A stretch of 52,524 bases of DNA from NCBI GenBank assembly GCA_013823485.1, contig PNMF01000004.1, forward strand, positions 1-52,524. Direction: 5' to 3'. This document shows, piece by piece, positions 23,061 through 45,229 of this stretch. Made by a program: the position numbers and the translations under genes. The stretch is from Comamonadaceae bacterium (GTDB lineage Bacteria; Pseudomonadota; Gammaproteobacteria; Burkholderiales; Burkholderiaceae_C). A model generated the notes under the pieces. It made no database searches. It was not told the DNA's origin and worked only from the letters and a program-made list of their open reading frames with translations. Position 1 is the stretch's first letter, and each line of letters starts with the position of its first letter.

Positions 23061-23162
23061 ACCGCTTTTTGAATACCTGAGAACTCATCCGTTCATCGAT
23101 ACGGATTTCAACTCCATCGGAATGAGTACTTTGTAGTTATCTGAAAAACTACATTCGTGGGC

Positions 23163-23741
23163 ATGAACAAGCCCACCTCTTCCTTGCGCAATGCCGGTTC
23201 ACGGGGCCTGTCGCTCATCGAGATGATGGTGGCAGTGACCGTGCTCGGCACCCTCGTTGCACTCGCAGCGCCTTCGTTTGCCCGCATCGGCGAACGCTAC
23301 AAGGTCGACAGTGTGCAGGCCGACCTGGTCACGGCGCTGCAGTCCGCCCGTGCGGAGGCGGTGAATCAGGGCCGCACCGTCACCCTGCGGCGCCTCGCGG
23401 GCTGCCCGGAAGCGACCCACCCGGCCGACTGGCGCTGCGGCTGGGAAAGCTTCATCGACCGCAACCGCAACCGGACACGTGACCCGGACGACACGCTGCT
23501 CAGCAACCATGGCCCGGTGCGGGGCCACCAGATCCTGCTGGAGGGACCCCGGGACGACAGCCTGGCGTACTCGGCACTGGGACGCAGCGATGTCGCCACG
23601 CAAGGGCTGCGGATCACGCCGGACCGCAGCACCACAGCCGGCACCACAGCCGGCACCACTGTCGGCACCGGGCTGCGGCGCCTCTGCATCGAGTTCGGCG
23701 GCACCCGCCTGCGGGTGGTCGAAGGCAGCCACCCATGCTGA
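23163..23741 (+). CDS. FimT/GspH-family type IV minor pilin (first copy)
   Basis: 192 aa. Type IV prepilin leader: RNAGSRG is cleaved before LSLIEMMVAVTVLGTLVAL, with Glu at +5 of the mature protein. A GspH/FimT-type domain follows with the GCPEATHPADWRCGW cysteine pair and a terminal Cys. FimT-like minor pilins prime pilus assembly and in some species bind DNA for uptake. I prefer the ATG at 23163 to a GTG two codons earlier. A 12-bp minisatellite near the 3' end encodes TAGTTAGTTVGT. The upstream gap is AT-rich and includes the inverted repeat TGTAGTT/AACTACA (23132-23153), possibly its operator. Its end overlaps the next gene by 7 bp. Confidence 0.88.
   Translation: MNKPTSSLRNAGSRGLSLIEMMVAVTVLGTLVALAAPSFARIGERYKVDSVQADLVTALQSARAEAVNQGRTVTLRRLAGCPEATHPADWRCGWESFIDRNRNRTRDPDDTLLSNHGPVRGHQILLEGPRDDSLAYSALGRSDVATQGLRITPDRSTTAGTTAGTTVGTGLRRLCIEFGGTRLRVVEGSHPC
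23628..23663 (+). repeat. 12-bp tandem repeat inside fimT-like gene
   Basis: Three in-frame copies: AGCACCACAGCC, GGCACCACAGCC and GGCACCACTGTC, then a partial GGCACC. They encode a Thr/Gly/Ala linker, so copy-number change would keep the frame. Confidence 0.85.
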
Positions 23742-24295
23742 CCCGGCCGAAACCGTCAAGGTCACGCAGGGCGTCTCGCTCCGCCGGATTCACGCTGGTC
23801 GAGCTGCTGACCGTCATCACCCTGCTGGCCACGCTGTCGGCCATGGCCGCACCGGCCATGGTCGGCATGATGGTCCGCCACCGTGTCGACATCTTGAGGT
23901 CCGAACTCATGCAGTCGATGCAGCAGGCACGCTCGGAGGCCATGGCGCGCGGCAGCACGGTCACGCTGACCCGGCTGACCGGTTGCAGTACCGCACTGCT
24001 GAATGCCACCGACTGGAGTTGCGGCTGGACCACCTTCGTCGACATGGACGCGGACGGCGAGGAGGAAGCCGGTGATCTGCGGCTCCAGTCGGTCAGCGTG
24101 CCGGTCGGGGTGAGACTCACCAAGCCCACCACGCCCAACAGCAGCCAGCAGTTCAACCAGTTCGGCCAGAGCGTTACGCTGGGCCAGCGTTTCGAGCTCA
24201 GCCCGATGGACAGCCAGTACGCAGCCCTGGCCGGATCGGTCTGCTACTCCACCGGGACCCGGCTGCGCTTCAAGCAGGGGACGGGGTCATGCTGA
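23735..24295 (+). CDS. FimT/GspH-family type IV minor pilin (second copy)
   Basis: 186 aa and a clear paralogue of the preceding gene. The leader RRASRSAG is cut before FTLVELLTVITLLATLSAM (Phe at +1, Glu at +5). The same spacing of LTGC...DWSCGW cysteines and a terminal Cys support a conserved disulfide pattern. It overlaps both neighbours by 7 bp using the identical ATGCTGA junction, so the set is translationally coupled. Unlike the rest of the cluster it looks intact. Confidence 0.9.
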   Translation: MLTRPKPSRSRRASRSAGFTLVELLTVITLLATLSAMAAPAMVGMMVRHRVDILRSELMQSMQQARSEAMARGSTVTLTRLTGCSTALLNATDWSCGWTTFVDMDADGEEEAGDLRLQSVSVPVGVRLTKPTTPNSSQQFNQFGQSVTLGQRFELSPMDSQYAALAGSVCYSTGTRLRFKQGTGSC

Positions 24296-26085
24296 ACCAC
24301 CAACGCGGTGCGTCGTTGCTGGAAGCGCTGGTGGCCCTGTTCCTGGTGGCCTTCGGGTTGCTGGCCATGGCCGGGATGCAGGTTCGGGCGCTGAATGAAA
24401 CCCGCAACAGCGCTGCGCGCAATGTTGCATCGCAGATGGCCTCGGACCTGCTGGACAGGATGCTGCTCAATACCGGCGCCCGGACCGCAGCCAACCAGAA
24501 CAGCCCGTACCAGACCACGTGGGGAACGGTTGCTGCCGCGCCGGTCGACTGCCGTTCGACGCCTTGCAACCCGACGCAGCTGGCGCAGTTCGACCTCTGG
24601 CAGTGGAAGTCGGCCGTGGCGCAGCAGCTGGGCGTCAACACCGATTCGGGCTGCGGTGCCTACAACGGCATGCGGCTCATCGACAGGACCCATCGGACCA
24701 ACCTGACCAACTGGATCGACAACCTGACCTTGCCCAACCCGAGCAACACGCCATCGCATCTGGCGATGAAGAGGGTGCTCGACTACTTCAGCTCGAAAAG
24801 CAACTACAACCCCTGGCGGAACAACCCGCAAACCCCGGGCGACACGTCGGAGCTGAGTTGCCGCAAGTCGTTTCACGTGTTCATGACCGATGGCTCCTGG
24901 AACAGCGTGTACGCCAGCTTCAAGGACGGCGACGGTGTGGTCATGGGGGGCGGCAACGCCGACGGTGTCTCGCGAGACCTGCCGGACAGCGTCCGGTACG
25001 ACGCCGCCTCCGCACAGACCCGGTTCTACCGCGATACCCGGGGCATCCCGGCCATCAGCACCTTTTCGGACCTGGCGTTCCACATGTGGGCCACCGACCT
25101 GCGGACCGATCTGGCCAACGACGTGAAATTCCGGCAGAAGGTCAGCACCAACGAGATGTACGGCACCACCGCCATCACACCGTACTGGAACCCCAAGAAC
25201 AACCCGGCCAGCTGGCAGCACATCGTCACCTACACCATCGGGTTCAAGGGTGCCGCCGAAAAATGGACAGGCGACATCCAGTGGGCGGGCGGCATGTACA
25301 CGGGTGACGGCATCAACAAGCTGGCCCAGGGCAACTACGCCTGGACATCGCCGCTGTGCGGGACCAACCTCAACTCCATCTGCACCGTCGACCAGGGAGT
25401 CAAGGATCCCGGGGTGAACAACCGGCGCAAGCAGGAACTCTGGCACGCCGCCATGAATGGCCGGGGCGTCTTTTTTCCGGCACCGGATGACTCGGCGCTC
25501 ACCGCTGCCTTCCAGTCGATCCTGGCCGACACCCTGCGCAGCAAGCTGGTGCAGCAAACCATCACCGGGCAGGTGGCACGAACCGGTGGCACGACCGACT
25601 TCCGCAACTTCTTCATGACCTCCCGCAATGCGGTGCTCTACACGACGAACACCGCCACATCGCCGCGAGGCTGGTACATCGATCTGCCGCCCACGGGCGA
25701 AAGGCTGCTCAGCAACCCGACCCTCGGCTCCGGCACGCTGGTCCGTTTCAACACCCGGGTGCCGGCCGAATCGCAAACCGAGGGCACCTGCTCCACAACG
25801 CCCCGCCCGGAACTCGGGTTCCTGAACATCGTGAGCGGACTCACCGGCGCCCCCTCGGTCGAACCGGTGTTCCATTCGGCCGACCCCACACTGGACCTCA
25901 GCAACGCCTCGCGGGTGCAGTTCGGCGCCGGAGAATCGGTGGGCATCGAGACGGGCCGACGGACCGTCGTCTTCGACCTGACCAGCGCAGGCGCATCGCC
26001 CAGCGACCAGACCAGAACCTCCCCCCTCGAACTCAACCGGTTCACCTACGTCCCGCGCCGCATCGACTGGCGCATCCTTCCATGA
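24289..26085 (+). CDS. PilV::PilY1 hybrid minor-pilin/tip protein
   Basis: 598 aa joining pieces of two normally separate proteins. Residues 1 to about 117 are PilV-like: leader MLNHQRG, cleavage before ASLLEALVALFLVAFGLLAM, then a pilin start ending in LAQFDLWQWKSAVAQQLG. From about residue 122 (CGAYNGMRLIDRTHR) it is PilY1-like: the von Willebrand-A-type CRKSFHVFMTDGSWN (191-205), DLAFHMWATDLR, YWNPKNNPASWQHIVTYTIG and WHAAMNGRGVFF. The usual large beta-propeller seems missing, because FQSILADTLRSK runs quickly into the late segment SPRGWYIDLPPTGERLLSNP and the native-looking end. pilW and pilX are absent. PilY1 normally exceeds 1000 aa. The parts are recognised from memory; the deletion origin is inferred. 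Confidence 0.75.
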   Translation: MLNHQRGASLLEALVALFLVAFGLLAMAGMQVRALNETRNSAARNVASQMASDLLDRMLLNTGARTAANQNSPYQTTWGTVAAAPVDCRSTPCNPTQLAQFDLWQWKSAVAQQLGVNTDSGCGAYNGMRLIDRTHRTNLTNWIDNLTLPNPSNTPSHLAMKRVLDYFSSKSNYNPWRNNPQTPGDTSELSCRKSFHVFMTDGSWNSVYASFKDGDGVVMGGGNADGVSRDLPDSVRYDAASAQTRFYRDTRGIPAISTFSDLAFHMWATDLRTDLANDVKFRQKVSTNEMYGTTAITPYWNPKNNPASWQHIVTYTIGFKGAAEKWTGDIQWAGGMYTGDGINKLAQGNYAWTSPLCGTNLNSICTVDQGVKDPGVNNRRKQELWHAAMNGRGVFFPAPDDSALTAAFQSILADTLRSKLVQQTITGQVARTGGTTDFRNFFMTSRNAVLYTTNTATSPRGWYIDLPPTGERLLSNPTLGSGTLVRFNTRVPAESQTEGTCSTTPRPELGFLNIVSGLTGAPSVEPVFHSADPTLDLSNASRVQFGAGESVGIETGRRTVVFDLTSAGASPSDQTRTSPLELNRFTYVPRRIDWRILP

Positions 26086-26515
26086 AGGCGGCAACGGAGC
26101 GGAGCCGCGAGGCGGGCATGACCCTGATCGAACTGCTGGTGGTGGTGACCGTGCTGGGGTGCTGGTGGGTCTGGCCATGCCCAGTTACGAACAATACGTG
26201 CTGCGCGGGCACCGCGGGCAGGCCCGGGCCACCGTGCTGCAGGCGGGGCAATGGCTGGAGAGGGCTGCCACGGCCCAGGGCACCTACCCGGCTGCTGCGC
26301 AGGTTCCGGCCGATCTGCTGCGGGTCGAGGGCGGGCGCTACACGGTGGTGGTGGCGACCACCACCACCAGCTTCACCGTCACGGCCACCCCCTCCGGGCG
26401 CCAGGCCACGGACGGCTGCGGCACCTTTCAGGTCGACCACACCGGGGCGCGCAGCCAGCTCCAGGTGGTCGGCCAGCCCCTGCCCCTGACCAGCGACGAG
26501 TGCTGGAGCCGATGA
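26082..26515 (+). pseudogene. Frameshifted PilE-like type IV pilin
   Basis: The first frame reads MKAATERSREAGMTLIELLVVVTVLG and then turns to nonsense. The continuing pilin sequence LVGLAMPSYEQYVLRGHRGQ, through to TSDECWSR, is one frame back. The break lies in a run of four G at 26156-26159; one more G restores an uninterrupted pilin of about 144 aa with a proper leader (G before MTLIE, Glu at +5). It overlaps the hybrid gene by 4 bp (ATGA). It may be a true pseudogene, a phase-variable gene, a -1 frameshifting site or a sequencing error. Confidence 0.85.
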
Positions 26516-37443: not shown

Positions 37444-37490
37444 GGGATCGGGGTGGCAGGCAGTTGCGGGGTCGCCCGCACTGTGCCACA

Positions 37491-37522
37491 GGCCGGCCGG
37501 GATCGGTCGATCCCGGCCGGCC
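37491..37522. repeat. Perfect 14-bp hairpin downstream of the flavodoxin gene
   Basis: Arms GGCCGGCCGGGATC and GATCCCGGCCGGCC around loop GGTC. Very stable but with no U-tract on either side, so possibly a Rho-independent-like pause, an mRNA stabiliser or a remnant repeat. Confidence 0.65.
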
Positions 37523-37537
37523 CTGATGGAACGGGGG

Positions 37538-38092
37538 TCAGCCCTTGAAGCGCTGGGCCACCGCAACCACGCGCTCGCCGAACTGGCGGGCGGTGTCGAC
37601 ATCGCCCTGGGGGATCTTGTCGGCGCCGGCGTCCGACGGTGCCTGCACCAGCAGACCCACCGAGCCGCCGAGGTTGTTGACGTCGGCGCGGGTCGAAGCC
37701 AGCTTGTTCGCGGGCGGCATGCCCAGGCTGACCCACAGGCCGCCATGCTGGGAGGCCAGGGTGGTCAGGTAAGACAGGGTGGAGCCCTTGTCGCCGTTCA
37801 GGCTGGCGCTGACCGTGAAGCCGGCAAAGAACTTGTCCTGCCAGGCGCGGGTGAACCAGGCCTTGGAGGAAGCGTCGGCGAATTTCTTGAACTGCCAGCT
37901 CGGGCCGCCCATGTAGGTGGGCGTGCCCATGACGATGGCGTCGGCGGCGGCCAGGGCTTCCCAGGCGCCTTCGGGCAGGTTGCCCTCGGCATCGACCGCG
38001 ATCAGATCGGCGCCGGCACCCTGGGCCACGGCCTGGGCGATGAACTGGGTGTGGCCGTAGCCGGAGTGGTAGACAACAACAACTTTTGCCAT
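37538..38092 (-). CDS. Flavodoxin-like NAD(P)H:quinone oxidoreductase
   Basis: 184 aa. The FMN phosphate loop HSGYGHTQFIAQAVAQGA (residues 9-26) and the isoalloxazine contacts MGTPTYMGGPSWQFKKFAD and NGDKGSTLSYL (near 99-109) fit the WrbA/flavodoxin_2 fold. WrbA relatives reduce quinones by two electrons and so avoid semiquinone radicals. It follows two pirin genes on the same strand. Substrate inferred only from family. Confidence 0.9.
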   Translation of the reverse strand: MAKVVVVYHSGYGHTQFIAQAVAQGAGADLIAVDAEGNLPEGAWEALAAADAIVMGTPTYMGGPSWQFKKFADASSKAWFTRAWQDKFFAGFTVSASLNGDKGSTLSYLTTLASQHGGLWVSLGMPPANKLASTRADVNNLGGSVGLLVQAPSDAGADKIPQGDVDTARQFGERVVAVAQRFKG

Positions 38093-44667: not shown

Positions 44668-45165
44668 TCAGGGACCCGAAGCGACCGCAGCCGGCGCCGG
44701 AGCAGCCGCTTGCCCGACCGGCTCGGTGCCCGGCACCGGCTGACCTTCCTTCTCGGCGGTGCGATCGAAAGTGAGCACCTTGCCGAACACCAGCTGCATC
44801 CAGGTCGGATACGTGTAGGCCGTGCCCTTGTTGTGGTCGATCACGGCACCGATGCCGCCACCGAGGATGATGTTGCCCCACATGCCGCCGTTGGCCCGCG
44901 AAATGGCGCGGCCCCGAGCTTCGGCCTGACCGGCGCCCTTGCAGACGATGTCCAGGTCTTTCGACGACCTGCGCACCGGCGTCGTGTCGCCGGACTTCAG
45001 GCTGACGGAGCCGTAGTCGTTGGTCAGCTGGCATTCGGCGCCGCTCACCAGCTCACCCGCCGGGTTGCGGGTCTCGACCTTCACCGGGTGGGTCGAGTCG
45101 TTGACGACCGACGCGCAGCCGGTGGACAGGATGGCGGCCGCGCAGGCCAGGGCGATGGATTTCAT
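44668..45165 (-). CDS. Outer-membrane-type lipoprotein, function unknown
   Basis: 165 aa from the ATG at 45165 with a strong GAGGAGGA site. Lipoprotein signal: a hydrophobic start and lipobox LSTGC, with Cys near residue 17 and Ala/Ser after it, suggesting outer-membrane sorting. The middle (GELVSGAECQLTNDYGSVSL, then TPVRRSSKDLDIVCKGAG) resembles a PEGA-like beta domain, and GNIILGGGIGAVIDHNKGTA is a glycine-rich hydrophobic segment. An Ala/Pro tail ends it. Similar small lipoproteins occur in Pseudomonas and Burkholderia, without known function. Confidence 0.82.
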   Translation of the reverse strand: MKSIALACAAAILSTGCASVVNDSTHPVKVETRNPAGELVSGAECQLTNDYGSVSLKSGDTTPVRRSSKDLDIVCKGAGQAEARGRAISRANGGMWGNIILGGGIGAVIDHNKGTAYTYPTWMQLVFGKVLTFDRTAEKEGQPVPGTEPVGQAAAPAPAAVASGP

Positions 45166-45229
45166 GGGGTTCCTCCTCGTTGAAAGGGCGCGACTGTAGG
45201 CCGCGCCCCGAGGGGACACCCCCGGGGGA

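Follow-up and report, generated by a model that had tools for sequence, protein, structure and literature searches.

A hybrid pilV-pilY1 reading frame between ribD and ribE in a Comamonadaceae genome, probably left by the recent decay of a redundant minor-pilin operon

The window analyzed here, a stretch of 52,524 nucleotides from a Comamonadaceae bacterium, contains a gene that begins as a PilV prepilin and ends as a PilY1 protein, which raises the question of whether it encodes a new kind of pilin, is the remnant of a decaying operon, or was created in the assembly. The single uninterrupted frame of 598 amino acids described in the initial annotation is present in the ORF list of the assembly. 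It is preceded by ribD and 2 genes for GspH-type pilins and followed by a pilE-like gene and ribE. The start codon of the hybrid frame overlaps the stop codon of the second fimT gene, and its stop codon overlaps the ATG of pilE. The nearest relative, the one found among the GTDB contigs, was a Hydrogenophaga MAG (NZ_OY288126.1, evidently contig C12 of the genome called G013 here), with the gene order ribD, two fimT genes, pilV, pilW, pilX, pilY1, pilE, and ribE, all of which are intact. The 2 loci have the same neighbors and G013 provides the nearest relatives of the PilV and PilY1 pieces, but its pilV (191 aa) and pilY1 (1091 aa) are complete and stand apart, separated by pilW and pilX. The features of the window are as follows.

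23157..23741, + strand: fimT/GspH-type minor pilin 1, the first cluster gene after ribD, start codon uncertain (PF12019 GspH, E 6e-13; 75% identity to the G013 orthologue)
23735..24295, + strand: fimT/GspH-type minor pilin 2 (PF12019, E 1e-11)
24289..26085, + strand: pilV::pilY1 hybrid ORF, 598 aa (ORF list, TIGR02523, match to the intact relative)
24289..24630, + strand: PilV-derived part with prepilin leader, aa 1-114 (of 191 in the relative), identified by its identity to G013 PilV and by TIGR02523
24624..24652, + strand: junction 1, where 2020 nt of the G013 sequence are missing (PilV 115-191, pilW, pilX, about PilY1 1-100) and an overlap of a few bases
24652..25530, + strand: PilY1-derived middle, corresponding to aa 106-396 of the relative, with the rest of the vWA-like region and the MTDG and YTIGF stretches
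25524..25540, + strand: junction 2, an in-frame loss of 1533 nt (511 aa) that takes nearly the whole PF05567 propeller
25531..26082, + strand: PilY1-derived C-terminal part, corresponding to aa 908-1091 of the relative
26082..26515, + strand: pilE-like minor pilin with a frameshift after about 25 codons, the prepilin N-terminus and the ComP_DUS domain being read in different frames

The PilV start was recognized by the NCBIfam model TIGR02523, which matched residues 5-121 above its cut-off (E 8.5e-22), and by a class III leader with Gly at -1 and Glu at +5, as read from the sequence. The remainder aligned in 2 pieces to the intact PilY1 of the relative, with residues 114-472 of the hybrid corresponding to PilY1 98-441 and residues 410-598 to PilY1 903-1091. 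The amino acid identity to G013 was 92% for the PilV part, 84% for the PilY1 middle, and 73% for the C-terminal part. Alignment with the full PilV and PilY1 proteins thus bore out both of the ancestries that had been proposed, and the change from one to the other, previously placed near 24640-24660, does exist but lies slightly earlier, at about 24631-24651. The length of the open frame is by itself weak evidence here, because the GC content of the window is 69% and one of the alternative frames across the first join is open for 224 codons (24 in the other). As judged from these alignments, the support for the hybrid is homology and not frame length. A phmmer search of the hybrid against PDB sequences gave no match at E<=1.

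The alignment of the window to G013 showed 2 breaks in this region, at 24624-24630 and 25530-25534, in agreement with the earlier suggestion that at least two in-frame deletions joined the genes. Both joins keep the frame, and the length of the second deletion is a multiple of 3. The alignments overlap by 7 bases at the first join and by 5 at the second, and the exact identity at the joins covers a few bases. No long repeat was present at either join, as judged from the sequence of the relative, which stands in for the ancestral sequence of the own lineage and leaves room for slightly longer repeats at the joins. Nor did any repeat pair the 2 ends of a join among the 20 repeat families listed of the 28 in the relative, and a collapse on a long repeat was rejected on these grounds.

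Compared to G013, PilV has lost its last 77 residues and PilY1 roughly its first 100 as well as residues 397-907, and pilW, pilX, and the PilY1 propeller are absent from this locus, as had been noted. The PilV sequence stops after residue 114. All 15 PilV rows aligned from such loci end in C...CHL/T..(I/V/L)RP, which is absent from the hybrid as well as from the divergent PilV encoded on contig C33 of the same genome, and the PilY1 cysteines that fall opposite this ending in the alignment do so by chance. The PF05567 propeller is located at residues 534-910 of the relative and was matched by all 14 intact PilY1 proteins of the genus, with no match in the hybrid at E<=1. The solved C-terminal domain of PilY1 (3HX6) was matched at 525-1003 by a profile of these 14 proteins. 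The C-terminal piece of the hybrid begins inside this match and, to judge by the alignment, probably does not form an independent domain.

The same profile matched the fimbrial tip protein Mfa5 at 57-153, from the DxSxS strand onward (E 2e-4), in a stretch that we take to be the vWA domain of Mfa5. The vWA identity of the PilY1 N-terminal region rests on this match, and the Pfam search of the 14 intact PilY1 proteins gave no vWA model. Since the match of the hybrid to the profile starts at column 114, past the DxSxS strand matched in Mfa5, the beginning of the vWA-like fold is missing. The signal peptide region, the first strand, and the DxSxS are missing from the hybrid; DxSxS was found in 13 of the 14 intact proteins, and the T and D columns of the motif, given as DXSXS...T...D in PMC8806160, are kept. 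The earlier proposal that a VWA domain is placed directly on a pilin stalk does not fit these losses, with the PilV part ending 77 residues early, and a minimal vWA tip adhesin is unsupported because the vWA-like region is itself truncated. A modular pilin combines a complete pilin module with a complete extra domain, and in the hybrid both are truncated by alignment. Likewise, the secretion signal, the DxSxS N-terminus, and the PF05567 propeller that characterize PilY1 are all lacking.

Matches at E<=1e-10 were found in 24 of the 67 genomes of the genus, its own included. None of those in the 66 other genomes, some of which are incomplete, spanned the PilV/PilY1 join, and the idea that the hybrid belongs to an ordinary family of 598-aa proteins was accordingly rejected for this set. 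Instead, 14 of the 16 comparable clusters in other genomes (from 13 genomes) contained separate, uninterrupted ORFs for pilV, pilW, pilX, pilY1, and pilE, where intact was defined by ORF and the PilY1 lengths ranged from 1082 to 1388 aa with uncurated start codons. The other 2 clusters were damaged in other ways, so that 3 of 17 clusters were broken when the window is included, each by a different lesion. Clusters in G029 and G087 were cut by contig ends and stand outside this count.

The 2 damaged clusters resemble the hybrid locus in that they are PilY1 clusters located by ribE in the same genus and have lost large parts, but they differ from it in what remains. In G012 (L073 3560-3950, G012:C63), pilV and pilW are followed by a pilX fragment that continues in a different frame into the end of PilY1 (the last ~50 residues). 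In G028 (L196 10828-14878, G028:C1, a 3.05-Mb contig), PilY1 is kept from about residue 380 on, between ribD and ribE, and fimT, pilV, pilW, and pilX were not identified in the 1.7 kb that separates ribD from the PilY1 remnant.

The genome that contains the hybrid also carries a divergent set of genes on contig C33, with uninterrupted ORFs for a GspH-type pilin, PilV, PilW, PilX (model score just below the cut-off), PilY1 (1190 aa), and PilE. Given this intact cluster, the one in the window represents a second set. Genes of the PilQ, PilB, and PilT types were identified above the model cut-offs elsewhere in the genome. A second copy of the lost PilY1 was not found elsewhere in the assembly, the PilW of the relative matched only weakly (E 0.003 at best, on C33), the PilX of the relative had no match in a search run without a positive control, and the 2041 bases of missing DNA matched only over short stretches (the best of 63 bases, E 1e-5). 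With this qualification on PilX, we rejected the possibility that the missing pieces are located elsewhere in the assembly.

To examine the evolution of the retained pieces, we compared the window with the relative. The dN/dS values were 0.05 for the PilV part, 0.19 for the middle, and 0.28 for the C-terminal part, the last of which is slightly above the range of the neighbors (0.15-0.25 for ribD, both fimT genes, pilE, and ribE). Tajima counts with G009 as the outgroup were 2:2, 7:7, and 7:10 for the 3 parts, given with the window first, and thus showed no excess of replacements on the window branch. The hybrid retains 65 of the 66 invariant columns in the kept regions; the intact rows, each scored in the same way against the other 13, kept from 66/66 down to 66/75. 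Of the 179 columns that are invariant among the 14 intact PilY1 proteins, the other 113 are lost; at 3 of these, the aligned PilV residue is a match. The lack of acceleration means that the event is recent, or that it is an assembly error, or, least likely, that the product is maintained. Most of the sequence history predates the deletions, and the rates point to a recent event, neither proving nor excluding a present function. It had been argued that the open frames were a sign of selection or of a recent event; the former is weak, since both joins would be in frame by chance in about 1 of 9 cases and the retained pieces do not clearly differ in rate from the intact relative, and the latter fits better.

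We think that the hybrid probably reflects the recent decay of a redundant minor-pilin operon. Selection on the copy in the window may have lapsed because the C33 cluster could serve for pilus priming and supply a PilY1 tip protein. The joins would have arisen by illegitimate deletions at the scale of microhomology, their in-frame state would largely be luck, and the product, if made, would be a prepilin whose bulky C-terminus is misfolded and which is degraded or, at most, poorly inserted. In favor of decay are the frameshift in pilE, the presence of an intact second cluster, and the other kinds of damage in the G012 and G028 clusters, and the lesions cut through domains and are absent from the intact orthologues, as in a pseudogene. 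Both joins being in frame and the conserved columns speak against it, as do the second join, which removes the Pfam propeller rather cleanly, and the kept pieces, in which no excess of replacements points to a loss of function. It is unlikely, by our estimate, that the joins and the pilE shift are assembly or amplification artefacts, absent from an organism in which the operon is really intact. The assembly is a draft of 218 contigs, 88.8% complete and 4.2% contaminated, and kept pieces untouched by decay are what a truly intact gene would show. Amplification chimeras can show short shared sequence at their joins, so the overlaps are also compatible with that origin. However, neither join has a long repeat within the limits given above, and the searches of the other contigs failed to locate PilY1 and PilX, with weak matches for PilW and short ones for the missing DNA.

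A control for assembly errors, which set 424 kb of the own genome against 1.83 Mb from the relative, also argued against an artefact. Of 10 own contigs sampled, 7 were unmatched against 1.06 Mb of the relative and 5 had little or no match against the 1.83 Mb, so the control spans ~210 kb of aligned sequence. Inspection of the ORF lists at the 11 collinear breaks in this sequence placed 9 at gene ends or between genes, while the other 2 were the joins of the hybrid, the only ones to fuse coding frames. PilY1 was alone among the 176 genes compared in having a large internal in-frame loss. The scan flagged 12 rows, 4 of them in the window, one in the same frame on contig C7, which looks like a match to a paralogue, and 7 others that were inspected as a group. 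Frequent frameshift errors in the window were rejected on the basis of its 4 flags, which were PilY1 itself, one shift at ~6150 between 2 genes, and 2 spans across gene boundaries; the scan missed the shift in pilE because shifts near gene ends escape it. The control lowers, without removing, the chance of an artefact in a draft of 218 contigs.

Quite unlikely, in our judgment, is a working new modular pilin, in which a PilV stalk carries the PilY1 remnant as a minimal tip component with no need of PilW, PilX, or the propeller. The prepilin leader and the PilV core are kept, the frame is open, the gene overlaps are preserved, and all but one of the scored PilY1 columns are conserved. Pilins with vWA modules do exist, and Streptococcus sanguinis PilB, as presented in PMC8179133, resembles the hybrid in that a single chain starts with a prepilin leader and pilin helix and continues into vWA-related sequence. 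Unlike the hybrid, in which the parts are cut and the DxSxS is missing, PilB has a canonical pilin module and a full vWA fold with a metal-binding MIDAS. The loss of the first vWA strand with its DxSxS, the propeller, and the PilV ending, the frameshift in pilE, and the lack of matches across the join in the genus all count against a working protein, and vWA deletions gave no twitching and the full deletion few surface pili, according to PMC8806160. The titles and abstract openings listed for papers on PilY1, minor pilins, and modular pilins mention no natural PilV-PilY1 fusion, which is not proof of absence. A still more specific version, in which a pilin stalk covalently linked to a propeller-less PilY1 core was selected to act beside or against the complete C33 tip complex as a one-piece replacement for the PilV-PilW-PilX-PilY1 tip complex, we regard as very unlikely.

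If the locus is decaying, it is a modest example of the erosion of a redundant pilus-tip operon, with 3 lesions in comparable clusters of 3 genomes in one genus. If the fusion were functional, it would show that a pilin can carry an attached PilY1 fragment in the absence of PilW, PilX, and the propeller, which is not predicted by current models of the priming complex, where minor pilins hold PilY1 through PilX, as outlined in PMC13190605.

Several minor observations were made at these loci. Six genomes (G014, G018, G086, G005, G026, and G073) had clusters that were divergent and in which the PilY1 ORF measured 1047-1462 aa, and L062 (G011:C164) contained the minor-pilin/PilY1 cluster in 2 copies with ribD between them. 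In the 30 ribE loci L166-L195, ribD was located beside ribE, or the pil genes were located between them or beyond ribD. The fimT ORF upstream of pilV in G012 was 87 aa, and in G028 the 1.7-kb stretch had a long open frame on the - strand that matched no cluster gene, with a second, longer PilY1 ORF located beyond ribD. It was also noted that the window contained ~540 nt without a counterpart in the relative at 44668-45226, between 2 conserved genes and with a 183-aa ORF on the - strand, and that the relative held ~650 nt extra between 2 genes at the position of 37451-37538.
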